A stretch of 64,000 nt of DNA, taken from positions 186,001 to 250,000 of the forward strand of contig NZ_PVEO01000007.1 in the NCBI RefSeq assembly GCF_002973595.1, in the 5' to 3' direction. The position numbers and the translations under genes are program-made. This DNA is from Jejuia pallidilutea (GTDB lineage: Bacteria > Bacteroidota > Bacteroidia > Flavobacteriales > Flavobacteriaceae). The number at the start of each line of letters is the position of its first letter. Positions within the stretch are counted from its first letter, which is position 1. Positions 19,406 through 36,524 of this stretch are shown here, piece by piece. The notes beneath the pieces are model-generated. The model was not told the DNA's origin. It did no database searches and worked only from the letters and a program-made list of their open reading frames with translations.

Positions 19406-19427
19406 TAAGTATAAATACTTAGTTTTG
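19406..19427 (+). promoter_or_regulatory. FNR-like palindrome overlapping the nirB -7 box
   Basis: TAAGTA-TAAA-TACTTA is a perfect inverted repeat (19406-19421) with a 4-bp spacer. Its last two bases begin the -7 box TAGTTTTG (19420-19427). The same arrangement recurs before the nitrate reductase gene and the FNR-type gene. Further TACGTA palindromes lie at 19354-19359, 19373-19378 and 19437-19442. The position over the core promoter suits a repressor, or a regulator that contacts RNA polymerase unusually. Confidence 0.7.
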
Positions 19428-19445
19428 TTTTTTAAATACGTAATT

Positions 19446-21962
19446 ATGCAGCATATAATTGTAGTTGGAAACGGGATGGTTGGTTATAAATTTTGTGAGA
19501 AATTTGTAGCTCAAAAAGAAAACAAAGCTTTTAAAATCACAGTATTTGGTGAAGAGCCAAGACCAGCTTATGATAGAGTTCATTTAAGCGAATTCTTTGA
19601 AAGTCAGAATGCTAAAGCCTTAGAGATGGCTCCAGCTGAGTGGTATGCTGAAAATGATATTGACTTAATTACAGGAGAACGTGTTGCTGATATCAATAGA
19701 AGTTCAAAAACCATTACTACGGCAAAAGATCGCGAGTTCTCATACGATTATTTAGTCCTTGCCACAGGATCTTCTCCTTTTGTACCTCCAATTAAAGGTG
19801 TTGAAAAGGAAGGTGTATTTGTTTATAGAACTATTGAAGATTTAGAAGGTATGCTTGCTTATGCTGCTAAACTGAAGGCTGAAAAACCTAATGCTAAGGC
19901 AGCAGTTTTAGGAGGTGGATTACTGGGTTTAGAAGCTGGTAAAGCTGTAATGGATATGGGCTTGGAACCTCATATTGTAGAGTTTGCACCCAAGTTAATG
20001 CCAAGGCAATTAGATTCTAGAAGTTCTCAAGTATTACAATTGAAATTAGAGTCTATAGGATTAAATATTCATCTAAGTAAAGCAACAAATCAAATTTTAG
20101 GAAACGGTCGTATTACGGGGATGGAATTTGGAGAAGATGACATTTTAGATGTGGATATGCTTATCGTTTCAGCAGGTATTAGGCCAAGAGATGAGTTAGC
20201 TAGGGCATGTGGGTTGGAAGTTGGTGTTCGCGGTGGTGTAATTGTAGATAATACCATGAAAACTTCAGATGATGCGATTTATGCTATTGGTGAAATCGCC
20301 CTATATAATCAAATGATTTATGGTCTAGTAGCCCCAGGTTACGATATGGCAGATATTGCTGTACAGCAAATATTAGGGAATGCCGATAAAGTTATGCCTT
20401 CAGATATAGATATGTCTACCAAATTAAAATTAATTGGTGTAGATGTAGCAAGTTTTGGAGAGCCATTTATGCCTGCATCAAAAGGGCATTCTATTATATT
20501 TGAAAATAAAACACAATACTTGTACAAAAGAATTAATGTAAGTCATGATGGTAAAAAGTTATTAGGCGGAATTCTTGTTGGTGATGCTGCAGATTATAGC
20601 ATGTTGCATCAAGTATACCTAAATGGAATGGCTATTCCTGAAGATCCTGCGCAATTAATATTGCCTGTAAGTGAAGGTGGCGCATTACTTGGTGATGTTA
20701 TGGATTTGCCAGATGAGGCACAAATATGTTCTTGCGAGAGTGTAACTAAAGGCCAAATATGCGGTGTTATTGAAAATGGGGATGCTACAGATTTAGGAGA
20801 TGTGGTAAGTTGTACAAAAGCTGGAACGGGTTGTGGCGGTTGTAAGCCAATGGTAGCAGATTTAACCAATGCGACATTAAAATCCTTAGGTATTGAGGTT
20901 AAGGACTCTATTTGCGAACATTTTGACTATAACAGACAGGATTTATATAAAATTATTCAAGTTAAAGGCTATACTAAATTTAATGAAGTATTAGATAGTC
21001 ATGGTAATGGCGGACACGGTTGCGAAATATGTAAGCCTGTAATTGCATCTTTAATGGCTTCAATTCATGCAGATACAGCGAATAAAGAATACGCCATACA
21101 AGATTCAAACGATAGGTTTTTGGCCAATATACAGCGAAACGGAACATATTCGGTTGTGCCAAGGGTTCCAGGAGGAGAGATTACACCAGATAAGTTGATT
21201 GCACTTGGCGAAATTGCAAAGAAATATGACCTCTATACTAAAATCACAGGAGGTGTTCGTATCGATCTATTCGGAGCTACTTTAAATCAGTTGCCATTAA
21301 TTTGGAAAGAACTAATAAGTCACGGTTTTGAAAGTGGTCACGCTTATGGTAAGTCTTTAAGAACTGTAAAAACCTGCGTTGGATCTACTTGGTGTAGATA
21401 TGGTATGGATGAAAGTGTAAGTTTTGGAATTGAATTAGAGAATCGATACCGAGGCATACGTGCGCCTCACAAAATTAAAGGTGGCGTTTCAGGCTGTATT
21501 CGCGAATGTGCAGAAGCAAGGGGGAAAGACTTTGGTTTAATTGCTGTTGAAGGTGGTTGGAATTTATACGTTGGTGGAAATGGTGGTGCAAACCCAAGAC
21601 ATGCCGAATTATTTGCCGAACAAATAGATAACGAAACGGTAATTAAATATCTAGACAGATACTTAATGTTATACATGCGTACCGCTAAACCATTACAACG
21701 AACTGCCGCATGGCAAGAAAAGCTGGAAGGTGGATTAGAGTATTTAAAAGAAGTGATTATTGAAGATAAACTAGGTATTACAGAAGACTTAGAAAAAGAA
21801 ATGCAAACTCTGGTTAATAAGTTTGAATGTGAATGGACGCAAGCTGTAAATGATCCGGAAATGATGAAACGTTTCAATCATTTTGTGAATAGTGAAGCGG
21901 AAGACGATAATCTAGTTTTTGTTCCGATGCGGGATCAAAAAATGCCTGAGCCTTGGGTGTAG
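19446..21962 (+). CDS. nirB: Assimilatory NAD(P)H nitrite reductase, large subunit NirB
   Basis: 838 residues from ATG 19446; a TTG at 19425 in the same frame lies inside the promoter and is rejected. Domain order: FAD/NAD(P) reductase (VVGNGMVGYKF at the start, VLGGGLLGLEAGKAV near 160), two BFD-type [2Fe-2S] segments (CSCESVTKGQICG with CTKAGTGCGGC, then GCEICKPV), and the siroheme/[4Fe-4S] reductase module with ligands Cys644, Cys650, Cys684 and Cys688. It reduces nitrite to ammonium in the cytoplasm with NirD. It opens the nitrate assimilation island and has the island-wide palindrome 25 bp before its start. Confidence 0.96.
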   Translation: MQHIIVVGNGMVGYKFCEKFVAQKENKAFKITVFGEEPRPAYDRVHLSEFFESQNAKALEMAPAEWYAENDIDLITGERVADINRSSKTITTAKDREFSYDYLVLATGSSPFVPPIKGVEKEGVFVYRTIEDLEGMLAYAAKLKAEKPNAKAAVLGGGLLGLEAGKAVMDMGLEPHIVEFAPKLMPRQLDSRSSQVLQLKLESIGLNIHLSKATNQILGNGRITGMEFGEDDILDVDMLIVSAGIRPRDELARACGLEVGVRGGVIVDNTMKTSDDAIYAIGEIALYNQMIYGLVAPGYDMADIAVQQILGNADKVMPSDIDMSTKLKLIGVDVASFGEPFMPASKGHSIIFENKTQYLYKRINVSHDGKKLLGGILVGDAADYSMLHQVYLNGMAIPEDPAQLILPVSEGGALLGDVMDLPDEAQICSCESVTKGQICGVIENGDATDLGDVVSCTKAGTGCGGCKPMVADLTNATLKSLGIEVKDSICEHFDYNRQDLYKIIQVKGYTKFNEVLDSHGNGGHGCEICKPVIASLMASIHADTANKEYAIQDSNDRFLANIQRNGTYSVVPRVPGGEITPDKLIALGEIAKKYDLYTKITGGVRIDLFGATLNQLPLIWKELISHGFESGHAYGKSLRTVKTCVGSTWCRYGMDESVSFGIELENRYRGIRAPHKIKGGVSGCIRECAEARGKDFGLIAVEGGWNLYVGGNGGANPRHAELFAEQIDNETVIKYLDRYLMLYMRTAKPLQRTAAWQEKLEGGLEYLKEVIIEDKLGITEDLEKEMQTLVNKFECEWTQAVNDPEMMKRFNHFVNSEAEDDNLVFVPMRDQKMPEPWV

Positions 21963-22060
21963 TATGTAAATAGTAGTTAGTATTTAGAGGATTGACTATT
22001 CTTTTTTAAGACTAAGGTAAAAGGCTAAAAATCTGGGGTGAGTTTGTTGCTAGCAAGTAT

Positions 22061-22150
22061 GCCCGCGTTAGGGATTGCAGTGGAAAGCCCACAGCGGAGG
22101 TACAGAGCGAGGACTTGTAGCGTAAAGCCCGACCCGATAGGGTAACGCCC
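22061..22150 (+). repeat. GCGTTAGGG dispersed repeat, copy 1 (between nirB and nirD)
   Basis: A 90-bp element beginning GCCCGCGTTAGGGATTGCAG and ending GGGTAACGCCC, with two internal AAAGCCC motifs. Related copies lie at 32983-33174 (reverse) and 39274-39419. It is much more GC-rich than its surroundings and has no coding potential. It probably acts at RNA level or is a REP-like element. Confidence 0.85.
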
Positions 22151-22204
22151 AAATTATAAAAACTAATAAATTAAACTGGTTTTAGTTTATCAAAATACAT
22201 TAAA

Positions 22205-22582
22205 ATGGAAGACATTCTAGAGAAATATACAGCCACAAAAATTGAAGATGTTACTGTTTGGTTTAAAGCAGCTTCAACTGAAGATTTTCCAGTTGATGGA
22301 GGCGCTTGTGTGAAATATAAGGATAAGCAAATAGCTGTTTTTAACTTTTCAAGATTAGGTAAGTGGTATGCGTGCCAAAACCTTTGTCCGCATAAAATGG
22401 AAATGGTACTAAGTAGAGGTATGATAGGTGATGATAAAGGTATGCCAAAAGTGGCTTGCCCGTTACATAAAAAAACCTTCTCATTAGAGAGTGGCGAAAA
22501 TTTAAACGGTGATTTAAACCCAATAGCAACCTACCCTGTAAAGATTGAAGAAGGTTATGTTTATGTGGGGTTTATTGATTAA
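22205..22582 (+). CDS. nirD: Nitrite reductase small subunit NirD
   Basis: 125 residues with a Rieske-type fold. Unlike the enterobacterial NirD, which lacks cluster ligands, this one retains a full set: Cys61-x-His63 (CPH) and Cys85-x2-His88 (CPLH). It can therefore be predicted to carry a [2Fe-2S] centre and to act as an electron-transfer subunit of nitrite reductase. It is 242 bp downstream of nirB, separated by the GCGTTAGGG repeat, and has no own copy of the palindrome, so it probably depends on nirB transcription. Confidence 0.9.
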   Translation: MEDILEKYTATKIEDVTVWFKAASTEDFPVDGGACVKYKDKQIAVFNFSRLGKWYACQNLCPHKMEMVLSRGMIGDDKGMPKVACPLHKKTFSLESGENLNGDLNPIATYPVKIEEGYVYVGFID

Positions 22583-22770
22583 GATGGTATTTGCCAAAGC
22601 GTGCTGTTATATGTAAAGGACTTTGGGTTAAGAGGTTATTAAATTACTTAGACAAAATCCCAAATATTCTGTATTTTATCGCAAATGCTTTGGTGATTTT
22701 AGTAGTTAAAACTAGAACATTTAGTTAGAAATCGTTTAGAAAAATTCCAGATACAACATTTAATTAAAAA

Positions 22771-22789
22771 AAGTAATTATGTATCTTGG
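22771..22789 (+). promoter_or_regulatory. Degenerate copy of the palindrome before the DUF4202 gene
   Basis: AAGTA-ATTA-TGTAT followed by TATCTTGG preserves the left half-site, the 4-bp spacer and a -7-like box (one mismatch) in the same register as the other promoters. The right half-site is poor. It is 30 bp before the start codon. Weak on its own. Confidence 0.3.
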
Positions 22790-22818
22790 CTATCATAGAA
22801 TTCAACTCAAAATAGATT

Positions 22819-23403
22819 ATGAAGCCCACACGTTTTGAAACGGCTATTGCACTTATAGACAAGGCAAATTCTGAAGATATAAATACTTACGAAGTTGCTG
22901 GAATACAATATCCTAAAGAATTGTTATACTCGCAACGTATGACGCGAAAGTTATTGCAATTTAAGCCGGATGCGTCTAAGGCTTTACAAATTGCTGCACG
23001 TGCGCAACACATTTGTAGATGGAAAATTCCAAGAGATGAATACCCAATGGATCGCGTGGGGTATTTAAAATGGCGTGAAACTTTAAAAAAAATGCATGCT
23101 GATTTAACATCGGAAATCTTAAAGAAAGTTGGCTACGATGAACAGTTTGATGATAGAATTAGAAAAATTATTCTAAAAAAGCTCATTAAAAAAAACGAGG
23201 AGTCTCAGGCTTTAGAGGACACCATTTGCCTAGTGTTTTTAGATTATTATTTTGAGGAATTTGCTGAAAAACATCCAGATGAAAAGGTGATTGATATTCT
23301 GCAAAAAACATGGGTAAAGATGAGTGAAGCAGGCCAGCAAGAAGCTTTGAAACTCAAATTTTCTAAAAAATCTTTAGCTTTAGTAAAACAAGCTATTTCA
23401 TAA
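22819..23403 (+). CDS. DUF4202 protein
   Basis: 194 residues, helical, with the conserved ARAQHICRWKIPRDEYPMDR segment of DUF4202. The His/Cys/Arg/Asp cluster looks like a possible active or metal site (HD-like), but no activity is established. DUF4202 genes recur beside nitrite or nitrate reductase genes, and this one lies between nirD and a NarX-like kinase, 13 bp before the kinase. A role in nitrate assimilation or its signalling is likely. Confidence 0.88.
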   Translation: MKPTRFETAIALIDKANSEDINTYEVAGIQYPKELLYSQRMTRKLLQFKPDASKALQIAARAQHICRWKIPRDEYPMDRVGYLKWRETLKKMHADLTSEILKKVGYDEQFDDRIRKIILKKLIKKNEESQALEDTICLVFLDYYFEEFAEKHPDEKVIDILQKTWVKMSEAGQQEALKLKFSKKSLALVKQAIS

Positions 23404-23416
23404 ATCTCCTAGAATT

Positions 23417-25234
23417 ATGACAAAAAACGGCAATTCACTAGACCAACGGACTTTTGATAAACTTCGCCGTTTATATATTATCGGTTTTAGTACCATTGCA
23501 CTTTCGGTGATTGTGAGTCAGATTTTAATCCGAACACATTTAAGTCGTCAAGAAAGTGATTCTGGAGTAATCAATATTGCTGGAAGGCAGAGGATGTTGA
23601 GCCAGAAATTAGCAAAAGACGCTATATCTCTTTTGGCTTTAAAGCATCCTGAAGATGTATTCATCATCAAAGAGGATTTAAAAAAGACTGTAAAGCTTTG
23701 GGAACTATCACACGATGCGCTTCAAAACGGCAATGATAGTTTAGGTTTGCCAAAACAAAATTCAAAAGAAGTTATAGCTAAATTTAAGGTGCTGAATCCC
23801 ATTTTTGATTCTATAAAAGATGCTTCAAAATCTATAATTACGAAAATTGAAAATGTACCGCCTCTACCTTTAGATAGTTATGTTTCAGATATTGAAAAAG
23901 TTAGAAATCATGAAGGTGATTTTTTGATACAGATGGATGCTATTGTTAACCAATACGACAAAGAAGCCGAGGAAAAAGTAGCTTGGTTAGGTAAACTAGA
24001 GTTGTTGTTAATGGCTCTAACCTTACTAATACTGTTGGGTGAGTTTGTATACATTTTTTGGCCCGCAGCAAAATCAGTACGATATACTTTAAAGGAGTTA
24101 TTGGCTGCGGAAGGTAAAGCTAAAAAAATGGCTTTTGATGCAGATGAACTCAGTAAGGAAAAAGAGAAATCCATACAGGAACTGAGTGCACTTACAAGAG
24201 CAATGGATGATACGCTTTTATTTGCTAGAATCTTACCAAATGGAGCTTTGGTGCATATGGGAAATAAGTTTTCTCACCTTTTTAGTTTCTCGAAGTTTAA
24301 CGATTCAGCATTATTTTGGAATGTATTATCGACCAATGAGCATGAACAAGAAGCTATTGAAAACATAATTAGTAAGCACAAAAAAACAGGGTGGCAAGGA
24401 GAAGTTAAAGCCACTACTAAAAAGGGTGATGATGTTTGGTTAGAAATGGCGGTAATTCCGTTTAGTACCACAGACGAGAAGTCAGAATTACTAATAATAG
24501 CTTCTGAAATTACAGAACGCAAAGTAGCCCAATTAGAAATTGATAGATTGACAGAAAAGAGTTTTGAGGAGAAGATGAGTCAACAAAAAATAATCTCTAG
24601 CAAGATTATTGAAAACCAGGAGAAAGAGCAAAATAGAATAGCCAAAGATGTACATGATGGTATAGGGCAAATGTTAACGGGTTTAAAATATAACCTGGAA
24701 AGTATCGATATGAAAGATGTTAAAAAAGCAACATCTAAAATTGAGCATTTAAAAGAGTTGACCTCAAACATCATTAAGGGTGTTCGCACCGCAACATTTA
24801 ATTTAACACCTCCAGAGCTAACAGATCATGGTATAGTTCCTGCCCTTACAAAGTTAACACAAGAGTTGGCACGATTAACTGGTAAGGAAATTGTGCTTTT
24901 TAATAAAACCGATTTTAACCAGCGAATGGAATCGCTTGCTGAAATAAATATATACCGTATTGTACAAGAAGCGGTTAATAATGCTATTAAATACGCAGAA
25001 TCTTCCCATATAATTGTATCGCTATCACATAGTGCTAAAATACTTAGTATTGTTATAGATGATAATGGTAAAGGGTTTAATCCTGATAAAATAAAACATG
25101 TAAAAACAGGAGATGGTGGAATGGGAATGACGTTTATGAAAGAACGAATTAAATATATTGATGGGCGTTTATTTATAACTTCTGAAGAAAGCAAAGGCAC
25201 TAGAATTACCTTGAATGTGCCGTTAAATAATTAA
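23417..25234 (+). CDS. NarX-like nitrate-responsive sensor histidine kinase
   Basis: 605 residues. TM1 is at about 17-36. A periplasmic PilJ/NarX-type helical sensor follows with IAGRQRMLSQKLAKDA, the segment equivalent to the nitrate-binding P-box, and TM2 lies at about 193-213. Then come a coiled linker, a PAS domain (about 250-370), HisKA_3 with phospho-acceptor His413 in AKDVHDGIGQ, and HATPase_c with NAIKYAE and DDNGKGF. It would sense nitrate or nitrite outside the inner membrane and phosphorylate the NarL-type regulator at 25922. The two genes are separated by 687 bp containing a pseudogene, which is unusual. Confidence 0.88.
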   Translation: MTKNGNSLDQRTFDKLRRLYIIGFSTIALSVIVSQILIRTHLSRQESDSGVINIAGRQRMLSQKLAKDAISLLALKHPEDVFIIKEDLKKTVKLWELSHDALQNGNDSLGLPKQNSKEVIAKFKVLNPIFDSIKDASKSIITKIENVPPLPLDSYVSDIEKVRNHEGDFLIQMDAIVNQYDKEAEEKVAWLGKLELLLMALTLLILLGEFVYIFWPAAKSVRYTLKELLAAEGKAKKMAFDADELSKEKEKSIQELSALTRAMDDTLLFARILPNGALVHMGNKFSHLFSFSKFNDSALFWNVLSTNEHEQEAIENIISKHKKTGWQGEVKATTKKGDDVWLEMAVIPFSTTDEKSELLIIASEITERKVAQLEIDRLTEKSFEEKMSQQKIISSKIIENQEKEQNRIAKDVHDGIGQMLTGLKYNLESIDMKDVKKATSKIEHLKELTSNIIKGVRTATFNLTPPELTDHGIVPALTKLTQELARLTGKEIVLFNKTDFNQRMESLAEINIYRIVQEAVNNAIKYAESSHIIVSLSHSAKILSIVIDDNGKGFNPDKIKHVKTGDGGMGMTFMKERIKYIDGRLFITSEESKGTRITLNVPLNN

Positions 25235-25872: not shown

Positions 25873-25902
25873 TACGTAGTATTACTTAATTTCTTACTTT
25901 TG
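25873..25902 (+). promoter_or_regulatory. FNR-like palindrome and -7 box before the NarL-type gene
   Basis: TACGTA-GTAT-TACTTA (25873-25888) has the same half-site spacing as the nirB copy with one changed base in the left half. A -7 box TACTTTTG follows at 25895-25902. Here the palindrome lies just upstream of the -7 box instead of overlapping it. Confidence 0.6.
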
Positions 25903-25921: not shown

Positions 25922-26587
25922 ATGGACAAAATAAATGTTGTACTCGCCGATGATCATGTTTTAGTAAGGGATGGTATCAAGGCACTTTTAGAAGACCAAT
26001 CTGGTATTGAAGTAATTGATGAAGCCTCCAATGGTGTTGAGGCATTGGAAGTACTAGGAAGAAATAAACCTCATGTGTTAATTGTAGATATTAGAATGCC
26101 GGAAATGAACGGGATTCAAGTGGTTGGTGAAGTTAAGAAGTTGCATCAAAATGTAAAAACATTGGTTTTATCTATGCATGACTCTGAGGAATACGTAGTG
26201 CAAGCTATTCAAGCTGGGGCAGATGGTTATTTGCTTAAAGGAGCTAGTAAAGAAGAGTTTTTAAAAGCACTGCATAAAGTGGCTAATGGAGGTAAATATT
26301 TTACAGGAGATGTGTCAGCAATTATTATGAATAATTTTGTGAGCGGTAATACAAATACTGCAGTTGCATCAAACGCAGACATAAAAGAAGATCCTTTTAA
26401 ATTAACAAAACGCGAAAAACAAATTTTAGGTTTAGTTTTAGAGCTTAAGAATAATAAAGATATTGCCGATGAACTTAAAATTAGCAAGCGTACTGCAGAA
26501 GTACATCGTTTTAACTTGATGAAAAAATTAGAGGTTTCCAATCTCAAAGAACTTACTGAAAAGGCAAAAGAGTTCGGTTTGGTGTAA
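25922..26587 (+). CDS. NarL/FixJ-family response regulator
   Basis: 221 residues. The receiver domain has Asp10/Asp11, phospho-acceptor Asp56 in LIVDIRMP and the conserved Lys in GYLLKGAS. A linker follows (about 130-150), then a LuxR/NarL HTH (LTKREKQILGLVLELKNNKDIADELKIS with SKRTAEVHRFNLMKKL as recognition segment). It is the likely partner of the NarX-like kinase. Its own promoter carries the island palindrome, so its synthesis is probably under the FNR-type regulator. Confidence 0.9.
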   Translation: MDKINVVLADDHVLVRDGIKALLEDQSGIEVIDEASNGVEALEVLGRNKPHVLIVDIRMPEMNGIQVVGEVKKLHQNVKTLVLSMHDSEEYVVQAIQAGADGYLLKGASKEEFLKALHKVANGGKYFTGDVSAIIMNNFVSGNTNTAVASNADIKEDPFKLTKREKQILGLVLELKNNKDIADELKISKRTAEVHRFNLMKKLEVSNLKELTEKAKEFGLV

Positions 26588-27115: not shown

Positions 27116-27137
27116 TAAGTATAAATACGTAGTTTTG
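27116..27137 (+). promoter_or_regulatory. FNR-like palindrome overlapping the nitrate reductase -7 box
   Basis: TAAGTA-TAAA-TACGTA (27116-27131) overlaps the -7 box TAGTTTTG (27130-27137), exactly as before nirB. Only one base differs from the nirB copy over 22 positions. The start codon follows after a 65-base leader. Confidence 0.7.
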
Positions 27138-27202: not shown

Positions 27203-30200
27203 ATGATACAAAGCGAAGTAAAAACTACCTGTTCCTACTGTGGTGTTGGTTGTGGTATTGTTGTTAAAAAAGATAATAACAATAAAGTATTTGTAGAAGG
27301 CGATAAAGATCACCCTGTAAACAAAGGAATGCTTTGTTCCAAAGGAATGAATCTGCATTATGTGGCTAACGATACTTCCGATAGAATTTTATATCCAGAA
27401 ATGCGTTGGAGCAGATCCCATCCAAGGGAACGTGTAAGTTGGGATGATGCTTTGGATAGGGCTGCAAGCGTTTTTAAATCTATTATTAAAAAACATGGGC
27501 CAGATAGTGTTGGGTTTTATGTCTCAGGACAAAGTTTAACCGAAGAATATTACATTGCCAATAAACTAACCAAAGGCTTTTTAGGTACTAATAATATCGA
27601 TACGAACTCCCGTTTATGTATGAGTTCTGCTGTTGTTGGCTATAAAAAAACATTCGGGGAAGATAGTGTGCCCATTTCTTATGCTGATATTGAATTGGCA
27701 GATGCGTTTTTAATTACAGGAGCAAACCCTGCTTGGTGTCACCCTATTTTATTTAGACGGTTAGAAAAACACAAAGAGGAGCATCCAGATGTAAAAATTA
27801 TTGTAGTTGATCCTAGAAAAACGGATACAGCAAATTTTGCAGATTTACATTTACAGTTACTACCAGGAACCGATGTTATATTGTATAATGCGATTGGAAG
27901 GTGCTTGTATAAACGCGGTTTAATAGACGAAGACTTTATAAATAAACATACTGAAGGATTTCAAGAGTACAAAGATTTAATTTTTAGCACCTCTTTGAAG
28001 CAAGCATCAAAATTATGTGGTGTACCTGAAAAGGATATTCGGAAAGCTGCAGATATTATAGGGCTTGCAAAAGGCTTTATTAGCATGTGGGCCATGGGTT
28101 TAAATCAAAGTGTTGTAGGTACAGATAAAAATGTGTCACTCTTAAATTTGTCATTAATTACGGGTCAGGTAGGAAAACCGGGCTCTGGTCCATTTTCTTT
28201 AACCGGCCAACCTAACGCCATGGGAGGTCGTGAAGTAGGCGGAATGGCAAATCTTTTGGCGGTTCATAAAGATTTAATGAATGAAGAGCATCGTCGTGAA
28301 GTGGCTCAATTTTGGGGTGTAGATCAAATCAATCCAAAGCCAGGGTTAACAGCCACAGAAATGTTTGATGCCTTAGAAAGTGGTAAAATGAAGGCGGTTT
28401 GGATTGCCTGTACAAATCCACTAGTGAGTTTACCAAATTTGAATCGTATTGAAAAAGCCATGAAAAACGCAAAGTTTGTTGTGGTTCAGGAGATTTCTCA
28501 TAAATCTGATACTGTCGCCTTTGGTGATTTGGTATTACCGGCAGCTGCTTGGTTGGAGAAAGAAGGAACGATGACGAATTCCGAAAGGCGTATTTCATAC
28601 TTGCCAAAACAAATAGACCCACCAGGTGAAGCTAGACCTGATGTTGAAATATTCTGTGATTTTGCCCAGCGTATGGGTTTTAGAGGCTTTAATTTTAATA
28701 GTGCCAGCGAGATTTATGACGAGTACGCTTCTATGACAAAGGGTACAAATATTGACGTGTCTTATTTGAATTATGATAGGTTAAAAAACGAAGGCACCTT
28801 CCAATGGCCTGTTCCCGAACATAGGCATCAAGGAACACCAAGGCTTTTCGAGGATAAAAAATTCTACACACCCTCAACAAAGGCACAGTTTAATTTACCA
28901 GTTTCTATTATAAATACTTCAATACAACCCAATGCATCCTACCCTTTAATTCTAACAACAGGTCGAGTAAGAGACCAATGGCACACCATGACCAAAACAG
29001 GAAAAGTGTCTCGTTTAAAAACGCATTATCCCAAACCGGTCTTAGAAATTCATCCGGTAGATGCATATTTATACCATATTAAAGATGGTGATATCACTCA
29101 AATAAAAGGAGAAAACGGTGAGGTACGGGTAAGGGCCAAAGTAACTGATACCATCAAAAAAGGAGTGGTGTTTTTGCCAATGCACTGGGGTAAACAGTTG
29201 CAAAGTAATCTAAATAGAACCAATAATTTAACAAATACGCATCTAGATCCTGTTTCAAAAGAACCAGATTTTAAATTTACGGCAGTCGCTGTTTCAAAAT
29301 ATAAAAAACCTACTGAGAAAATTATAATTGCAGGTGCTGGGGCAGCAGCGTTCAGGTTTGTTCAAAACTATAGAGAGCAAAATGAAAGAGATGAAATTCA
29401 TGTGTTTTCAAAAGAACCAAATCTGTTCTATAACAGAGTATTGCTTCCAGAATATGTTACTGAGGAATTAACTTGGGAGCAACTTCTAAAAATAAAAAAA
29501 CTAGAGCTTAATAAACTTAATATTCATTTACATCCTGAGACTACAATTTCTCAAATTGATAAGGATAAAAAAGTAGTAAAAGATAGCAATGGCGAAACCC
29601 ATACGTTTGATAAATTAATTTTAGCCACCGGAAGTCGCGCATTTGTGCCAAAAGACGTTCAGATTAATTTACCTGGGCGTTTTACCATGCGAAATAAAAT
29701 TGATGCAGACGAATTTAAGGCGCATCTGGAAGCTACAGGATTGCCTCCAGAAGCGCAACATGTTGTTATTGTTGGTGGCGGTTTACTTGGGCTGGAGTTA
29801 GCGGCTGCGATGAAGCATAAAAATGCTAAAATCACCATAGTGCAAAGGGGGTCTCGCTTAATGGAGCGTCAGTTAGATAAAGTGTCGAGTAAACTTTTAG
29901 CCATTGATGTACAAGAGCGCGGTATTCAAATTTATTTTGATAATGAAGTAAGTACCGTATTTGATGATGAAGATACCGGTGAGTTGAATATTACTTTAAA
30001 AAGTGGAAAGTTAATAACTGCAAATGCTATTGTTTACGCTATTGGAACTATCCCCAATATTGAAATTGCAAGAGAAAATGGTATTAAATGCAGACGAGGT
30101 GTTATTGTAAATGAGCACTTGCAATCGTCTCATCCTGATATTTTTGCCATAGGGGAAATAGCTGAATTTAATAATCAATTGTTTGGAATAACCTCCGCAG

Positions 30201-30724
30201 CGGAAGAGCAAGCTACTATTCTGGCTAATTTTATTGCAGGAGATATAAGTGATGCCTATAAAGGCTCAGTATTAATGAATATATTGAAATTCAACGATTT
30301 GAATCTATGTAGTATCGGAGAAATCAATGTACCTGAAAACGATGATAGTTTTGAGGAAATTATATTTACTGATATAAAGAAGCGCTATTACAAAAAATGT
30401 ATTGTAAAAGACGATTTGTTGGTTGGTGCGGTTTTAATGGGTGATAAAAATGAATTTGCTGAATTTAAAACCATGATAGAGGGTAAAATTGAAATGGCCG
30501 ATAAGCGAAATACCTTATTGAGAGGTTCATCTAAAGATGAGCCTGTTCTTGGAAAATTAGTGTGTTCGTGTAGTCAGGTTGGGGCAGGTAACATTGAGGA
30601 TGCCATTGCAAAAGGTTGTACGGATTTTACAGCGCTATGTAGTGAAACTGGCGCAGGTTTAGGGTGTGGCAGTTGTAAAAGTGAAGTGCGTGAGATACTT
30701 ATGAATTCTAAAGTTTTAATGTAA
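27203..30724 (+). CDS. nasA: Assimilatory nitrate reductase fused to an NADH-type flavoprotein and BFD domain
   Basis: 1173 residues. The N-terminal [4Fe-4S] site is Cys10, Cys13, Cys17, Cys45. The Mo-bis-MGD domain follows with Cys139 in TNSRLCMSSAV as the expected molybdenum ligand, and a molydopterin-binding C-domain (LILTTGRVRDQWHTMTKTGK). From about residue 705 there is a complete NirB/NasB-like FAD-NAD(P) module (IIIAGAGAAAF, and VVIVGGGLLGLELA at 852). A BFD-type [2Fe-2S] segment closes the protein (VCSCSQVG ... GLGCGSCKSE). It reduces nitrate to nitrite in the cytoplasm; the fused module should deliver NAD(P)H electrons directly. In bacilli these are separate NasB and NasC proteins. 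Confidence 0.93.
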   Translation: MIQSEVKTTCSYCGVGCGIVVKKDNNNKVFVEGDKDHPVNKGMLCSKGMNLHYVANDTSDRILYPEMRWSRSHPRERVSWDDALDRAASVFKSIIKKHGPDSVGFYVSGQSLTEEYYIANKLTKGFLGTNNIDTNSRLCMSSAVVGYKKTFGEDSVPISYADIELADAFLITGANPAWCHPILFRRLEKHKEEHPDVKIIVVDPRKTDTANFADLHLQLLPGTDVILYNAIGRCLYKRGLIDEDFINKHTEGFQEYKDLIFSTSLKQASKLCGVPEKDIRKAADIIGLAKGFISMWAMGLNQSVVGTDKNVSLLNLSLITGQVGKPGSGPFSLTGQPNAMGGREVGGMANLLAVHKDLMNEEHRREVAQFWGVDQINPKPGLTATEMFDALESGKMKAVWIACTNPLVSLPNLNRIEKAMKNAKFVVVQEISHKSDTVAFGDLVLPAAAWLEKEGTMTNSERRISYLPKQIDPPGEARPDVEIFCDFAQRMGFRGFNFNSASEIYDEYASMTKGTNIDVSYLNYDRLKNEGTFQWPVPEHRHQGTPRLFEDKKFYTPSTKAQFNLPVSIINTSIQPNASYPLILTTGRVRDQWHTMTKTGKVSRLKTHYPKPVLEIHPVDAYLYHIKDGDITQIKGENGEVRVRAKVTDTIKKGVVFLPMHWGKQLQSNLNRTNNLTNTHLDPVSKEPDFKFTAVAVSKYKKPTEKIIIAGAGAAAFRFVQNYREQNERDEIHVFSKEPNLFYNRVLLPEYVTEELTWEQLLKIKKLELNKLNIHLHPETTISQIDKDKKVVKDSNGETHTFDKLILATGSRAFVPKDVQINLPGRFTMRNKIDADEFKAHLEATGLPPEAQHVVIVGGGLLGLELAAAMKHKNAKITIVQRGSRLMERQLDKVSSKLLAIDVQERGIQIYFDNEVSTVFDDEDTGELNITLKSGKLITANAIVYAIGTIPNIEIARENGIKCRRGVIVNEHLQSSHPDIFAIGEIAEFNNQLFGITSAAEEQATILANFIAGDISDAYKGSVLMNILKFNDLNLCSIGEINVPENDDSFEEIIFTDIKKRYYKKCIVKDDLLVGAVLMGDKNEFAEFKTMIEGKIEMADKRNTLLRGSSKDEPVLGKLVCSCSQVGAGNIEDAIAKGCTDFTALCSETGAGLGCGSCKSEVREILMNSKVLM

Positions 30725-32166
30725 TGGAAGAGCGCTATAGATTAATGATTAACGGCGGTGTATTATCACCAGGAGAGTTGAAGTATATTTGTGAAGCTGC
30801 CGAAGGTTTAGGTTTAGATGCTATTTCTTTTGGCTCGCGACAAGACATTATTTTTCCTGAAAAAATAGATGAAAGCAAGTTTTGCCAGTTTGATAAAATT
30901 CAATTTGTAAAACCCAAGCGAGATGGTGTAGAAAATATTGCGTCATCTTATGTTTCAGCCGAAATTTTACCAAGTACGTCTTGGTTAACAAGCGACCGTT
31001 ACTTATATGTTTTAGAACAATTTAAACATAAACCTAAATTAAGGATAAATGTTATAGATCCTAAACAGCGCTTAGTACCATTGTTTACGGGAAACGTTAA
31101 TTTTATAGCTTCAGAACATGAAGACTATTGGTATTTGTATTTAAGACTTCCGGGTTGGAAAAACACCGAAATATATCCCGCTTTAATTTACAGTTGGGAT
31201 ATAGATAGAATAGAGCTAGCCATTGAAAATATTCTAATTGAAGAACCAGAAACCATGGAAACTGTTTTTGAGCTAGTTAGTGACGCTGTAGACACTAATA
31301 ATAGAACAGTGGATAAGCCTCTAGAAGTACCGTTTTACCCATTTCCGTATTATGAAGGTATGAATAGAATTGGAACAGATAGGTATTGGTTGGGATTGTA
31401 TTGGAGAAATAACCGGTATGACATAAAGTTTTTAAAGGCCATGTGCGATTTGTGTTCAGATAATAAAATAGGAAAGATTTCCATTACACCTTGGAAATCA
31501 TTTATCGTAAAAGGCATTCCCTTACATTCAAAACTCAATTGGGAAAAACTTCTAGGTAAATTTGGTATTAATGTGCGACATTCCATGTTAGAAATGAACT
31601 GGCATGTACCTGTTAACGATAAAGAAGCGCTAAGTTTAAAAAAGTATTTGGTAACTAATTTTGATCAAAACGATATAAGTACGTATGGTTTAACGTTTGG
31701 CATAACAAGTTATGATAGTGATACCTATAATTTTACTTCAATTGTAATTGAAAAAAACAGACAGCCCAAAACGGTTGGAAATTTTACAATAAGAGATACT
31801 TATAACCTTTTGTACGCAAAAGATTTTGATCCAAATACGCGCGAATACATCATGCATGTGCAAGATGTAGATATGGTGGAGCTTCCGGGATTATTAATGG
31901 AGTTAAGCAAATTATATTTTGAGCAATTAGGTGTTGAGAAAGAAACAGAAACACTGCCAGAGACGCAAAAGGAAAGAGAGGAAGAAGAAGTATATCAGTG
32001 CTCAGATTGTAAGACAGTTTATTGTGAGACTTATGGAGATATTACTCAGGATATTGCGCCCAATACACCGTTTGAGAATTTACCAAGTACTTACGAATGC
32101 TCAGTTTGTGAAGCACCAAAACATAGTTTTGAGAAAAAAACCTTTCAAATTTTACCAAATTCATAA
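30724..32166 (+). CDS. NirA-like half-domain protein with C-terminal rubredoxin, no siroheme ligands
   Basis: 480 residues. Two nitrite/sulfite reductase ferredoxin-like half-domains are visible (SPGELKYICEAAEGLGLDAI with GSRQDIIFP near residue 20, and LKAMCDLCSDNKIGKISITPW near 240). The Cys-x5-Cys ... Cys-x3-Cys set that holds siroheme and [4Fe-4S] is absent. A rubredoxin domain ends the protein, with Cys426/Cys429 and Cys459/Cys462. The start codon overlaps the stop of the nitrate reductase gene (TAATG), so the two are translationally coupled. It is probably an electron carrier or assembly partner of the nitrate reductase. Confidence 0.8.
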   Translation: MEERYRLMINGGVLSPGELKYICEAAEGLGLDAISFGSRQDIIFPEKIDESKFCQFDKIQFVKPKRDGVENIASSYVSAEILPSTSWLTSDRYLYVLEQFKHKPKLRINVIDPKQRLVPLFTGNVNFIASEHEDYWYLYLRLPGWKNTEIYPALIYSWDIDRIELAIENILIEEPETMETVFELVSDAVDTNNRTVDKPLEVPFYPFPYYEGMNRIGTDRYWLGLYWRNNRYDIKFLKAMCDLCSDNKIGKISITPWKSFIVKGIPLHSKLNWEKLLGKFGINVRHSMLEMNWHVPVNDKEALSLKKYLVTNFDQNDISTYGLTFGITSYDSDTYNFTSIVIEKNRQPKTVGNFTIRDTYNLLYAKDFDPNTREYIMHVQDVDMVELPGLLMELSKLYFEQLGVEKETETLPETQKEREEEEVYQCSDCKTVYCETYGDITQDIAPNTPFENLPSTYECSVCEAPKHSFEKKTFQILPNS

Positions 32167-32189: not shown

Positions 32190-32211
32190 TAAGTATTATT
32201 ACTTAATTTTG
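32190..32211 (+). promoter_or_regulatory. FNR-like palindrome overlapping the promoter of the FNR-type gene
   Basis: TAAGTA-TTAT-TACTTA (32190-32205) overlaps the -7 box TAATTTTG (32204-32211), as before nirB and the nitrate reductase gene. It implies autoregulation. The leader to the ATG at 32228 would be about 10 bases. Confidence 0.7.
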
Positions 32212-32227: not shown

Positions 32228-32977
32228 ATGCCCGCAGTCGCCATGTCTACATATACCAGATTTCGCTCCTTAAAAGATACGTCGTGTGCGTCCTGCGATA
32301 ACTCAAATTGTATAGTAAATAGAAACCTTTCCATTCTAGAAAATTCCACGTTAGTAGACAACAAAAGCACCTTGCGTTGTAAAAAAGGGCAACAGTTTAT
32401 TATGGAGGGCGCGCCGGTAAACGGACTCTTTTTCATTCTAAAAGGTACGGTTAAGGTTTTTCGCACTGGAATTAACGGACGCGAACAAATTGTGCGTTTA
32501 GCTAAAGAAGGCGAAATTATCGGCCACCGCGGTTTCGGTACAGAAGAGTACTATTCCATTGGTGCTATAGCGCTTCAAGATGCTGTATTGTGCTATTTTT
32601 CTAAGGAAAACCTGCAAGAAACCCTGCTAGACAATCCTAAGTTTGCCTTCGATATGATGTTGTTTTATGCCAACGAACTTAACCGCAGCGAAAACAAAGT
32701 AAAGTCTATTTCGCAAATGACGGTGCGCGAGCGTGTCATCGATTCCCTATTATACATACACCGAAAGTTTGGAGATTTAAATGGCTTTCTAAACCTTCCT
32801 TTAAGTAGAAGAGAATATGCCGATTATGCTGGTACAACAGAAGAGCAAGTTATTCGCGTGTTTTCAGCTTTAAAAAAAGAAAACCTAATTACAGCTAAAG
32901 GCAAGAAAATTGGTATTAACGCTATCCAATCGCTTAAAAAAGAAATTAACGACCATAATTACTTTTTAGATAGTTAG
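32228..32977 (+). CDS. Crp/Fnr-family regulator with FNR-type iron-sulfur cysteines
   Basis: 249 residues: cyclic-nucleotide-binding fold (about 35-150), dimerisation helix and winged HTH. Cys20, Cys23 and Cys28 near the N-terminus and Cys122 in AVLCYF fall where E. coli FNR has Cys20, 23, 29 and 122, the ligands of its oxygen-labile [4Fe-4S] cluster. The recognition helix TTEEQVIRVFSAL keeps the FNR Glu and Arg (Glu206, Arg210) but has Ile209 in place of Ser212. A second in-frame ATG at 32243 would shorten it by five residues. It is the best candidate for the regulator of the palindromes in this island, including its own promoter. Confidence 0.88.
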   Translation: MPAVAMSTYTRFRSLKDTSCASCDNSNCIVNRNLSILENSTLVDNKSTLRCKKGQQFIMEGAPVNGLFFILKGTVKVFRTGINGREQIVRLAKEGEIIGHRGFGTEEYYSIGAIALQDAVLCYFSKENLQETLLDNPKFAFDMMLFYANELNRSENKVKSISQMTVRERVIDSLLYIHRKFGDLNGFLNLPLSRREYADYAGTTEEQVIRVFSALKKENLITAKGKKIGINAIQSLKKEINDHNYFLDS

Positions 32978-32982
32978 GTTTT

Positions 32983-33174
32983 GGGCGTTCCCCTCGATGT
33001 TACATGATAAAGTTTCATGAAACTACCGTGCTCGGGTCGGGCTTTCCGCTATATCTTTTGTTTTGTCATTCCTGCGCAGGCAGGAATCCACAACACTATT
33101 AAAAGCTATAATGAATAGTTCGTATATATCAATAGAAAAACAAAAGGATGCCGCTGCAATCCCTAACGCGGGCC
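32983..33174 (-). repeat. GCGTTAGGG dispersed repeat, copy 2, split by another repeat
   Basis: Read leftward it begins GGCCCGCGTTAGGGATTGCAG and ends GGGGAACGCCC, with AGCGGAAAGCCCGACC inside. About 90 bp of extra sequence sit in the middle, including the ATTCCTGCCTGCGCAGGAAT hairpin (33067-33088) and an AGTTTCATGAAACT palindrome nearer the end. Confidence 0.75.
33067..33088. repeat. ATTCCTGCGCAGGCAGGAAT hairpin repeat
   Basis: A near-perfect palindrome of the REP type commonly preceded by GTC and followed by CC in bacterial genomes. It lies inside copy 2 of the GCGTTAGGG element, so it inserted later. Confidence 0.6.
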
Positions 33175-33242
33175 AACCCGCCAGCTTCATTACCAACCCC
33201 AAAATTATATTCGTTTTTTTTGAAAACACAAAAATATTTTGC

Positions 33243-33440: not shown

Positions 33441-33537
33441 AAAGATAAAATAGTTCTTTTGTTGCGCAAGATTACCAAGACACTCGTGCATCATTCATCA
33501 AAATGCATTTTTGTTGAAAACTAGGTATAAGTATGTA

Positions 33538-33568
33538 TTGGTTTTATCGTAGGAAAAGTCTAGCTTTG
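33538..33568 (+). promoter_or_regulatory. Promoter of the Mrr-STAND gene
   Basis: TTG (33538-33540), 20 bases, then TAGCTTTG (33561-33568) fit the Bacteroidota -33/-7 consensus well. A left half-site TAAGTA lies at 33528-33533 but the right half is missing. The leader to the ATG at 33667 is about 90 bases. Confidence 0.55.
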
Positions 33569-33666
33569 TTTTTCGGACATTATAGTGCATTAAAAACTGA
33601 ACCATATCTAACCGTTGACCTTCATTATAAAAAAACACAATTTATGCCGAAAATTCAAATGTTCAA

Positions 33667-36057
33667 ATGAGTAACTATAATTTTAAAACCTTAAATGATA
33701 AAGAGTTTGAGAATTTAACTCGAGACTTACTTTCAGCTGAGATGGAAATTGAATTTCAAAGCTTTAAATCTGGAAGAGATAAGGGTATAGATTTAAGATA
33801 CTCAACAACAAGAGATAATAAAATTGTTGTTCAGATTAAACACTACGCTAATTCGACTTTTGCTCAATTAAAACACACTTTGAGCAATACTGAACTTCCA
33901 AAAATTAAGAAACTGAAGCCCGAACGTTACATTGTAGCTACTTCTCTTGAACTTTCTCCTCAAGAAACAGAGGAAATAAAAGAAATATTATCTCCTTTCG
34001 TGCTTAGTCTAAATGACATTTATTGGAATCAGAGAATAAATGCATTGCTTTCAAAATTTCAAGATATAGAAAGGAATCATTTTAAATTATGGTTTTCAAG
34101 TAGTTCAATTCTAACTAATATTTTAAACAATAGTTCTTACTTAAAATCTGCGTATCTCGAGACGGAATTAGAAAATAAAATAAGTCATTATGTAAAAACT
34201 GATTTTCATGATAAGGCTACAGAAATACTAAAGACCCAAAAGGTACTTTTAATAACTGGTGCTCCAGGTGTAGGGAAAACCACTTTAGCCCAAATGATTA
34301 TTCTAGATTTTATCAATAACGGATACGAACATTTGGTAATTGAAGACAAAATCAATGAAGCAGAAAATTTGTTGTCACCAGATGAAAATAAGAAGCAAAT
34401 CATATATTTTGATGATTTTCTTGGTTCAAATATCTATGAGATATTGAATCCAAGGAACAATGAGAATTCACTAATTAGGTTTATAAGTCGAGTTAGAGCA
34501 AATCCTAATAAGCTTTTAGTTCTAACGACAAGAACAACAATTCTAAATCAAGCTCTGTCGGCTTACGAAAAACTCAGATATCGTAAACTTCACGAAGAAT
34601 CTAAATTCGAAATTTATTTAGACGAATATTCTCGTTATCATAAAGCAGAAATTTTATATAACCATATTTATTTTGGCAACCTTAATGACGAATACCGAAG
34701 TTTTATCTTTAAGGATGAAAATTATTTTAAAATTATCAAGCACGACAACTATAATCCCAGACTTATTGAATATTTCACCAATGAAATTCACCTAAACGAA
34801 ATAACTCCAGAAAATTATTTGAATTTTATTCTAGAAAATTTGGATAATCCTGACGAAATTTGGCGTAATTCATACGAAAATCAAATAGATAGCGAAGATA
34901 GATTTCTTTTAAATTCATTATTCACGTTAAGAGGTGAGGCCACATTAAATTCATTAGAACAAGCATTTAATGTAAGAATTGAAAATGAAGCTGAAAATTT
35001 TGGACATGTGGTGAAAAATGACTCTTTCAACAAATCAATAAAAAATCTAGAAGGCTCTTATTTGAAAACAAGTTATGATGGTAAAAACGAAACTGTTATA
35101 ATTTCATTTGTTAATCCCTCTATCTCAGATTTTCTTATTAATTATTTAAAACAATCCAATTTTGAGAAATTAAGATTGATTAAAGGGATGGTATTTATTG
35201 AGCAAATCGTAAATGTATTCGATCCAAGTTTCAAAGATTATTTGAATTTTAATAAAACCGAGGGAAAAAAGTATTATAAAGCAATTTTAGATAATGAGAA
35301 TAAAATTAAAGAATTAACAAGTACTAAAAGATTTGAATTAGAATTCTTAAAAACCCTGTTAAGTTTATTCTATGGTATAGTTGAAGAAAAAGTAATTATT
35401 CGTCTATTCAAAAAGTTGGACTTAGAAAATATCAATGGTACAAGTATTGACAGCTTTATTTATGTTCTTGAAAGAATTAGCCATATATATGAATTAAAAG
35501 AAATAATAATTGCGAATTGGAATACATTAATTCTTGATTTGTACTATTGGGCTGATGATGAATCGAGATATAATAGTATTGTGAGTTTATTTGAAGATTA
35601 TTCACAGTCATATGATGAATTTATCAACGATAGTGATAACAATCAAACAGTTTCAGAACTTTTAATCAATTATTTAACGGAAATAATCGACCAAACTATT
35701 ATTGATAGTGTTACAGATTACGATTTTGAACCCAAAACAGAATACACACAAGTTGGATGGCAAGAATATATCGAAGAGACTCATGGTTTCGAATTACGTG
35801 ATGATATCGATGGCATTATAGAAGATGAGTTGATAAAGTATCAAGACATGATATTTTTATCAGATGGCCCATTTATAACCAGCTCAGACTTAAATATTGA
35901 CACTTCAGATTTGGTTTCAAGAATGGAAGAAGGTTATCTTGAATATCAAATTAGTTCAGCAGAAAACTATTATGATGAAAGACCAAGAGGTAACAGTAGT
36001 TACTCCTCAAATTCATACAATGAAACTGATAGGATAAACGATTTGTTTAGTGAATGA
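33667..36057 (+). CDS. Mrr-type nuclease fused to a STAND-like NTPase, putative phage defence
   Basis: 796 residues. Residues 1-130 are an Mrr-like PD-(D/E)xK nuclease: FENLTRDLL with Glu13, then GIDLR with Asp42 and VVQIK with Gln56 and Lys58. A P-loop NTPase follows with Walker A GAPGVGKTT (Lys204) and Walker B IIYFDDFLG (Asp249/Asp250), the pattern of novel STAND type 3 NTPases. The C-terminal 350 residues are helical, acidic and unrecognised, a plausible sensor. The family resembles antiviral STAND proteins that destroy DNA on detecting a phage protein. It interrupts the nitrate island, directly downstream of a repeat cluster, and has no partner gene. Confidence 0.8.
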   Translation: MSNYNFKTLNDKEFENLTRDLLSAEMEIEFQSFKSGRDKGIDLRYSTTRDNKIVVQIKHYANSTFAQLKHTLSNTELPKIKKLKPERYIVATSLELSPQETEEIKEILSPFVLSLNDIYWNQRINALLSKFQDIERNHFKLWFSSSSILTNILNNSSYLKSAYLETELENKISHYVKTDFHDKATEILKTQKVLLITGAPGVGKTTLAQMIILDFINNGYEHLVIEDKINEAENLLSPDENKKQIIYFDDFLGSNIYEILNPRNNENSLIRFISRVRANPNKLLVLTTRTTILNQALSAYEKLRYRKLHEESKFEIYLDEYSRYHKAEILYNHIYFGNLNDEYRSFIFKDENYFKIIKHDNYNPRLIEYFTNEIHLNEITPENYLNFILENLDNPDEIWRNSYENQIDSEDRFLLNSLFTLRGEATLNSLEQAFNVRIENEAENFGHVVKNDSFNKSIKNLEGSYLKTSYDGKNETVIISFVNPSISDFLINYLKQSNFEKLRLIKGMVFIEQIVNVFDPSFKDYLNFNKTEGKKYYKAILDNENKIKELTSTKRFELEFLKTLLSLFYGIVEEKVIIRLFKKLDLENINGTSIDSFIYVLERISHIYELKEIIIANWNTLILDLYYWADDESRYNSIVSLFEDYSQSYDEFINDSDNNQTVSELLINYLTEIIDQTIIDSVTDYDFEPKTEYTQVGWQEYIEETHGFELRDDIDGIIEDELIKYQDMIFLSDGPFITSSDLNIDTSDLVSRMEEGYLEYQISSAENYYDERPRGNSSYSSNSYNETDRINDLFSE

Positions 36058-36407
36058 TATCAATAAATACAGAAAGTAAAAACATAGAACAAAGGTCATT
36101 GCAAAACCGAAAAGTTTGTGCATAGAAATCCGCTACTTTTCATATACAAAACCGATAAGCATTCCTCCAAATAATATACTCTAAATTCTAGCTTTGTTCA
36201 TCAAAAGCCTTGTATTATATTTTAGTAGTTAAGAAAACTACGTAGTTTTTCCAAAAAACCCACCATTTCCTGTTCAATAGTTCCCTTTGTCACTAAAACA
36301 ATACGTAAAATGTTATCAACAATAGCATGTTTATACGTAGTGTTTTAAGTAAATCTTCCTGTGCTTAAATTTATTTTAATAATCTAAAAATCAAATACAT
36401 AAAATAA

Positions 36408-36434
36408 AAACCTGTGTTTTAACAGGTTTGCTTA
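36408..36434 (+). terminator. Terminator-like hairpin upstream of nrtA
   Basis: AAACCTGT (36408-36415) pairs with ACAGGTTT (36422-36429). The following T-tract is weak. It could end the defence-gene transcript. Confidence 0.4.
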
Positions 36435-36491
36435 TGTGTAAAAAGAGGTGTGTTTATGGGGATTAACATGGGTAAAATCTAAGTGTACTTA

Positions 36492-36524
36492 TATATTTGT
36501 CAAAAAAATAAGTATTTATACTTA
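36492..36524 (+). promoter_or_regulatory. nrtA promoter with FNR-like palindrome
   Basis: TAAGTA-TTTA-TACTTA (36509-36524) is a perfect palindrome of the island type, 23 bp before the ATG. TAGTTAAC follows where the other copies have TAnTTTTG. A perfect -7 box TATATTTG lies upstream at 36492-36499, so the palindrome would sit near +4 to +20 of that promoter. Confidence 0.65.

Follow-up and report, generated by a model that had tools for sequence, protein, structure and literature searches.

The stretch of the Jejuia pallidilutea genome analyzed here (64,000 nucleotides, hereafter the window: positions 186,001 to 250,000 of contig NZ_PVEO01000007.1, assembly GCF_002973595.1, from a genome of 4.11 Mb) carries a nitrate assimilation island that spans 19.4-42.6 kb of the window. 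Its genes are arranged in the order nirB, a nirD-like gene, a gene for a DUF4202 protein, a histidine kinase gene, the gene for a NarL-type response regulator (RR) encoded at 25922, a nasA fusion, a gene for a rubredoxin-bearing protein, an FNR/CRP regulator gene, an Mrr/nSTAND3 gene, nrtABCD and a porin-like gene. A 16-bp palindrome, for which the best form is TAMGTA-N4-TACKTA, occurs here in five copies, which precede nirB, the RR gene, nasA, the FNR-type gene and nrtA. The palindrome, its probable binder and the genes that it may control are the subject of this work. The five copies and the promoter elements next to them are the following:

19406..19421, + strand: nirB palindrome, TAAGTATAAATACTTA; its final TA opens the −7 box TAGTTTTG (19420-19427).
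25873..25888, + strand: RR-gene palindrome, TACGTAGTATTACTTA; the −7 box TACTTTTG is at 25895-25902, 6 bp downstream.
27116..27131, + strand: nasA palindrome, TAAGTATAAATACGTA; it has TA in common with the −7 box TAGTTTTG (27130-27137).
32190..32205, + strand: FNR-type-gene palindrome, TAAGTATTATTACTTA; it has TA in common with the −7 box TAATTTTG (32204-32211).
36492..36499, + strand: TATATTTG, preceding the nrtA palindrome; either a −7 box or, with a degenerate −7, a TTTG at −33.
36509..36524, + strand: nrtA palindrome, TAAGTATTTATACTTA.

The genes that they precede and the kinase gene are:

19446..21962, + strand: nirB, nitrite reductase large subunit (TIGR02374, 984 bits).
23417..25234, + strand: NarX/NarQ-like nitrate-sensing histidine kinase (PilJ with P-box, PAS, HisKA_3, HATPase).
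25922..26587, + strand: NarL-type RR (Pfam Response_reg and GerE), proposed to bind the palindrome.
27203..30724, + strand: nasA, assimilatory nitrate reductase fused to a NirB-like FAD/BFD electron-transfer part (NasC and NirB models).
32228..32977, + strand: FNR/CRP-family regulator with Cys20, 23, 28 and 51, probably of the iron-sulfur (Fe-S) type, read as a target and not as the binder.
36548..37939, + strand: nrtA, nitrate ABC transporter binding protein (NMT1_2 domain).

The form TAAGTA-N4-TACTTA is exact at 19406, 32190 and 36509, and one half is changed to TACGTA at 25873 and 27116; comparative data identify the TACGTA half as a regular variant. Exact TAAGTA-N4-TACTTA occurs three times in the 4.11-Mb genome, always inside the island. 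At up to one mismatch the genome has 40 matches vs. 44 for the motif read backwards as a control, and the one-mismatch class as such is background; at up to three mismatches the window is not enriched (67 matches vs. a shuffle mean of 92). The degenerate form TAMGTA-N4-TACKTA, which was picked after the copies and their relatives were known, is found 5 times exactly in the window vs. a shuffle mean of 0.03, with five copies reached in 0 of 100 shuffles, and 7 times in the genome, 5 of them in a 17-kb stretch, vs. 4 for the backwards control; at the control rate the Poisson probability of the 5 clustered copies is about 1e-11. With the −7 box in register (TAMGTA-N4-TACKTA-NTWTTG) the element occurs exactly three times in the genome, before nirB, nasA and the FNR-type gene. 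A first-pass annotation of the sequence had reported the palindrome in five island promoters and its extension into the −7 box in these three, and both observations are borne out by the counts.

Conservation of the box was followed in two sets of relatives that have organisms in common and are hence not independent: a family set of 299 genomes of the family, searched for nirB, the kinase and the FNR-type protein, and a named set of 76 loci retrieved with the kinase as query (Hyunsoonleella, Algibacter, Polaribacter, Tamlana, Formosa and others), in which boxes were sought within 300 bp. The promoter, register and half-site counts exclude genes with a match that started late in the query and genes with upstream DNA truncated at the end of the locus. 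In the family loci identity cut-offs of 60% (nasA), 45% (RR) and 60% (nrtA) were applied, and that of 60% for nasA also in the named-loci, register, half-site and variant counts; FNR matches below 50% identity were left out of the FNR alignment and of the named-loci register and half-site counts, and RR matches below about 45% out of the RR alignment. The named loci were rechecked with identity thresholds, and the counts at the original threshold were unchanged.

In the family loci, where the nirB of one genome (G271) is cut by the contig end so that 66 of 67 nirB promoters were read, the nirB box is exact in 65/66 and within one mismatch in 66/66. The nrtA box is within one mismatch in 47/49, the FNR-type gene has an exact box in 37/51 and nasA in 14/23, and the RR gene has an exact box in 13/32 and one within a single mismatch in 23/32. 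Exact boxes in the named loci precede nirB in 70/73, the RR gene in 50/69, nrtA in 12/13, nasA in 17/64 and the FNR-type gene in 4/19; no good site was seen at the nirB genes of L206, L220 and L235. Before the internal genes of the named loci there is no box, exact or with one mismatch: nirD 0/73, DUF4202 0/73, kinase 0/73, rubredoxin protein 0/57. A degenerate sixth copy had been proposed at 22771, close to the DUF4202 and kinase genes; besides these null counts, it falls outside the matches with up to three mismatches (five were counted by eye), and the proposal found no support.

The gene nirB is present in 67/299 family genomes, and RR orthologs accompany it in 67/67 (E at most 4e-63). The kinase is found at E <= 1e-90 in 65/67, the remaining two (G180, G228) having weaker kinase matches. 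The strict form of the site, TAMGTATNNATACKTA, has 194 sites in the 67 nirB genomes (66 with at least one; mean 2.90) and 54 sites in the 232 nirB-less genomes (35 with at least one; mean 0.23), and the backwards controls have 7 sites (0.10 per genome) and 30 sites (0.13), respectively. The compound element with the −7 box has 113 sites in 63/67 nirB genomes and 9 in 8/232 others, vs. 3 sites in 3/299 for the control. Comparison across genomes shows that the box and the RR go together. In a class sample of 345 genomes examined for the kinase outside the family, 2 genomes of other families have it; boxes are present in both, there is no FNR-type ortholog (best matches 1.3e-34 and 1.7e-18), and in the retrieved stretches, with a GC content of 0.44 and 0.48, the nirB box is exact in one and carries a single mismatch in the 48% GC one.

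Several of the compound-element sites in nirB-less genomes look hairpin-like by eye, and one genome copy outside the island of J. pallidilutea (C1:790910, L265) is immediately downstream of a response-regulator gene and resembles a terminator hairpin. Both observations would suit an RNA hairpin or terminator-like element in place of a protein site, an explanation that is hardly credible for the island copies, which precede gene starts, are mostly at or before the predicted −7 box and hence outside the RNA, and are not found upstream of the internal genes. A second regulon in the nirB-less genomes was also considered, 14 of which have at least two strict hits, and was rejected: 12 places in 4 genomes showed no shared targets and no in-register −7 box. 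The RR was searched in those 14 genomes as well, with a best match of 8.9e-40 and none at threshold in G255.

The 16-mer aligns end to end as TAMGTAT-NN-ATACKTA, i.e., as two inverted heptamers around a 2-bp centre, which is the 7-2-7 layout of NarL/NarP sites (PMC4549865, PMC2718512). The NarL heptamer of E. coli is TACYYMT. The 310 distinct exact sites provide 620 half-sites, with positions 1, 2, 4, 5 and 6 fixed by the selection of the sites; A stands at position 3 in 421 of them and C in 199, and T at position 7 in 403. C at position 3 is found in 56/88 half-sites where the RR is less than 65% identical to that of the window, and in 40/220 otherwise. Within the divergent RR group the count is 22/38 in the 8 genomes with the FNR-type protein and 32/48 in the 12 without it; within the close RR group it is 2/22 (6 genomes with it) and 2/16 (6 genomes without it). 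By these counts, the half-site variant (A or C) tracks the RR clade and not the presence of FNR.

Alignments of 101 RR and 70 FNR-type sequences without stops were used to look at the proteins. Most positions of the RR recognition helix are invariant; the residue aligned with NarL V189 (V194/T194) is V or T, and once or twice A, and C at position 3 goes with T in 48/66, with V in 47/238 and with A in 1/4 half-sites. This single-residue covariation is suggestive, being confounded with clade. The closest PDB match of the RR is NarL (1a04). Against the NCBIfam models it scores 138 bits for NarL (cut-off 250) and higher, 179 bits, for MctR (cut-off 300), and by that library the RR is not an equivalog of NarL.

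FNR-type orthologs (threshold E <= 1e-80) are found in 49 family genomes, all of them among the 67 with nirB. All of the other 18 nirB genomes (18/18) retain an exact box before nirB, placed 24 to 34 bp from the start codon with one exception at 117; all have the RR within the retrieved stretch and the nitrate kinase is also present, while the top match of the FNR-type protein in one of them (G177) is only 1.3e-5. The FNR-type protein is therefore not needed for the box. A strict site occurs in 17/18 of the nirB genomes without FNR and in 49/49 of those with it (means 2.06 vs. 3.20).

These counts bear on the binder. Like FNR/CRP sites (TTGAT-N4-ATCAA), the palindrome, read as AAGTA-N4-TACTT, has a gap of 4 and a G at half-site position 3, a likeness pointed out in the first-pass annotation, which had predicted an autoregulated regulon and named an FNR-type or NarL-type regulator as candidate binder. 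Binding by the FNR-type protein, which would then regulate itself and the island, is also in line with the E and R of the FNR recognition helix that it keeps (EEQVIR) and with the exact box before its own gene in 37/51 family loci; only 4/19 named loci have one there. Unlike FNR/CRP sites, moreover, the box does not depend on the company of an FNR-type regulator: it is exact at nirB in all 18 genomes without the protein, and its variant is much the same with and without it inside each RR group. On these last two grounds the FNR-type protein was rejected as sole binder, and this assignment is very improbable. The resemblance to the FNR layout is outweighed by the NarL-type 7-2-7 fit; what stands of the earlier prediction is the NarL-type binder and a shared regulon, the same genes in dozens of genomes, that includes the gene of its own regulator. 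A mixed case, in which the two proteins, where they coexist, compete for the palindrome or share it, is somewhat less improbable but still unlikely: FNR-bearing genomes have more strict boxes, but this surplus may be explained by extra targets such as FNR itself and a globin-like gene, and no clear change of the box accompanies the presence of FNR.

The FNR-type gene, where it carries its own box, is best seen as a target of the regulon and not as the source of its binder. The protein is probably of the Fe-S type, its cysteines being kept in 67 (C20), 68 (C23), 68 (C28) and 68 (C51) of the 70 aligned proteins. After the FNR-type gene of some relatives comes a globin-like gene of 137-138 amino acids (by sequence read), with an exact box in four of the five loci read, and the regulon may thereby include nitric oxide (NO) or oxygen handling:

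Globin-like gene with exact box: L051 13417, L052 13442, L053 13438, L060 13401.

The kinase has a PilJ domain (56.6 bits, Pfam) with the P-box INIAGRQRM (G-x-x-R), read by eye against the consensus quoted in the literature (PMC8199190); PAS_9 is present, and no HAMP or GAF domain was found with Pfam, which sets it apart from the proteobacterial type in these domains. It is read as a NarX-like nitrate sensor and putative partner of the RR. Kinase matches begin at residue 151-231 in five genomes (G002, G237, G082, G180, G228), where the PilJ part therefore seems to be missing or unrecognizable; the RR and the boxes are retained there.

The palindrome is best explained as a variant form of the inverted 7-2-7 repeat of NarL/NarP, its heptamers reading TAMGTAT. 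We put at roughly 85% the probability that it is the binding site of the NarL-type RR (25922), the partner of the NarX-like kinase (23417), a figure that refers to the binder and not to the sign of regulation. RR binding, nitrate as the signal and the sign are all points that we infer from sequence. In the proposed mechanism nitrate (or nitrite) would be sensed by the kinase, leading to phosphorylation of the RR, a dimer of which would occupy the boxes of nirB, the RR gene itself, nasA, the FNR-type gene and nrtA; through the FNR-type gene as a target, the signal of nitrate would be relayed to a sensor of the oxygen or NO type.

The first pass had correctly noted the position of the site over the core promoter, and this is now quantified by the register, the distance from the box end to the T of the −7 box TAnnTTTG, in distinct promoters with an exact box. 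The register is −2 in 102/123 nirB promoters and +9 in 9/123; −2 in 26/40 promoters of the FNR-type gene and in 18/30 of nasA; +6 to +10 in 51/60 of the RR gene, with −2 in 3; and −30 to −34 in 51/57 of nrtA, with −2 in 3. No TAnnTTTG was found within 40 bp in 10 nirB, 12 FNR, 9 nasA, 6 RR and 2 nrtA promoters. The box overlaps −7 in most nirB, nasA and FNR promoters and lies about one helical turn upstream in most RR promoters, and the 9/123 nirB promoters hold it 11 bp further up, again about one turn. In Flavobacterium psychrophilum TAnnTTTG is placed at −12 to −5 (PMC9723704), and with −7 placed likewise the box would extend over about −26 to −11 at nirB and, in the RR promoter, over about −35 to −20. 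For nrtA, TATATTTG may be the −7 box, with the palindrome after the transcription start; the favored reading takes the TTTG of TATATTTG as a −33 element followed by a degenerate −7, because the palindrome stands at a distance from the start codon (most often 21 and 23) near that seen at nirB (most often 24 and 23).

Discrete registers about one turn apart, both between genes and among nirB promoters, point to contact on one face of the promoter and so to activation, with the caveat that orthologous promoters share ancestry. Nitrate-dependent activation from inside the core promoter is, with modest confidence, the favored sign. The RR dimer would then sit on one core-promoter face; at nirB, nasA and the FNR-type gene it would overlap the −7 box, and at its own gene it would be placed about a helical turn further upstream. 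The rival is repression by the same RR, which would cover the −7 box and block RNA polymerase until nitrate changes its state. The overlap of box and −7 in nirB (102/123), FNR (26/40) and nasA (18/30) promoters would suit a repressor, as would an nrtA box downstream of the start, and at frdA of E. coli repression is exerted from a 7-2-7 site at −4/+6 (PMC4549865); nevertheless, a simple blocker needs no phasing, and the registers are discrete (−2; +6 to +10; −30 to −34 at nrtA) with an 11-bp shift at nirB, and it would be odd for a phosphorylated NarL-type protein to repress nitrate-use genes in response to nitrate. Repression is the less likely sign, though a good deal more likely than the alternative binders discussed above. 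As for how activation might work, it is tentatively suggested that a dimer on the 7-2-7 box, in register with the Bacteroidota −7 or about one turn upstream, replaces a missing upstream contact and holds sigma; if true, this would be a nitrate-set promoter geometry of Bacteroidota, with a NarL-family activator inside the core promoter.

Loss of the −33 box was considered as proof of activator dependence and dropped, there being no clear −33 signal even in ordinary promoters: TTG at a spacer of 17-23 was found in 0.213 of 47 sites in 400 kb of the own genome vs. 0.154 of 26 on the opposite strand, and in the retrieved loci in 0.143 of 77 ordinary promoters vs. 0.121 of 66 nirB promoters.

Several points weigh against the proposed explanation, in its binder or in its sign. 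Because the −33 calibration gave no clear signal, the argument for activation draws on geometry only. The RR and nirB are always together in the genomes examined, with no genome that has box genes and lacks the RR. An exact box is missing before the RR gene in 19/69 named and 19/32 family loci (in 9/32 there is none with a single mismatch either), and before nasA in 47/64 named (300 bp) and 9/23 family loci (about 400 bp). The RR's own boxes have T at position 7 in just 17/120 half-sites. V-bearing regulators of the divergent group (L104, L248) also use C at position 3, and since RR and box share their history, the position-3 pattern reflects one or few clade events, not many independent ones. 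In E. coli NarL the DNA-contact residues, which we take to be K188, V189 and K192, align with E, V and F of the RR (numbering by hand), and with E and F at K188 and K192 the specificity of E. coli NarL is therefore not transferable to the RR.

The remaining genes of the island that are named here are listed below; nirD, nrtA, nrtB, nrtC and nrtD were assigned by sequence read, nirD also by position and nrtB-nrtD also by gene order.

22205..22582, + strand: small Rieske-like protein taken as NirD (position and sequence read).
22819..23403, + strand: DUF4202 protein (domain search).
30724..32166, + strand: sulfite/nitrite-reductase-like half domain with a C-terminal rubredoxin (domain search).
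38076..41185, + strand: nrtB, nrtC and nrtD transporter genes, in an order common to many relatives.

The nasA product, of 1173 amino acids, unites the nitrate reductase catalytic part and a NirB-like FAD/BFD half in one chain; it matches residues 5-698 to the NasC model and residues 707-1168 to the NirB model, both under the whole-protein cut-offs. In four loci checked among those with no near box at nasA (L055, L059, L062, L066), an exact box precedes a transporter-like gene of 471-476 amino acids (by sequence read) between the RR gene and nasA, which starts soon after the box and its in-register −7 box and may encode a nitrate transporter that belongs to the regulon. In L095, L100, L102, L105-L108 and L260 boxes overlap at a distance of 10 bp, giving three consecutive half-sites of the TAMGTA type; they lie before nrtA, nasA or genes left unassigned, an arrangement that would suit two dimers binding in alternative registers. 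The gene at 33667-36057, between the FNR-type gene and nrtA, encodes Mrr_cat restriction-nuclease and nSTAND3 NTPase domains and may be an inserted defence-type gene because fnr and nrtA adjoin in several relatives (e.g., L055, L056, L059). A tRNA-Pro (TGG) gene at 19087-19162 directly precedes the nirB promoter, tRNA genes being common integration points of islands, and a GC-rich element (GGGTCGGGCTTTCCGC...) is found twice, in opposite orientation, at 22116-22135 before the nirD-like gene and at 33034-33053 after the FNR-type gene.

The role of nitrate kinases in different organisms was listed as open by a 2021 review (PMC8199190). The present analysis proposes a specific, testable scheme of nitrate control in marine flavobacteria, made up of a DNA site, its binder and a set of targets, in which the box would be a genome-wide handle on that role across organisms; an FNR assignment that would have sent experiments in the wrong direction is corrected as well, and the fixed geometry to −7, including the natural 11-bp difference among nirB promoters, makes activation at Bacteroidota promoters testable. 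No paper evidently describing this site was found in searches of the openly licensed PMC literature, as judged from titles and abstract openings. The parts of PMC8199190 considered here cover kinases and their architecture and give no DNA site or target set of Bacteroidetes regulators; the kinase of the island resembles the Bacteroidetes class i nitrate kinases, with PilJ and PAS and no HAMP or GAF, as described there for Flavobacteriales.

As in the NarX-NarL and NarQ-NarP systems of E. coli, a nitrate kinase with PilJ and P-box goes with a NarL-type regulator, and the sites are alike in their length of 16 bp, with inverted heptamers around a 2-bp centre and TA at the outer ends. NarP binds to 7-2-7 sites only as a homodimer, and nirB is likewise among the genes with such sites (PMC2718512). 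Unlike in E. coli, the island targets are assimilatory, and in many genomes they include the RR gene; the heptamer is TAMGTAT, whereas the engineered E. coli 7-2-7 site is TACCCCT-AA-AGGGGTA, with TACCCCT (PMC4549865); and the box would lie in the core promoter, at about −26 to −11, whereas the napF and yeaR sites of E. coli are at −40 to −49 and −38 to −47 (PMC9723704, PMC4549865). The reasoning from a motif and the co-occurrence of its regulator is that of the study on the HcpR, NnrR, NarP and NorR regulons (PMC1274295), in which, in 12 of 26 places examined, Bacteroides appears only for HcpR2 and there is no mention of a NarL-type site of Bacteroidetes.

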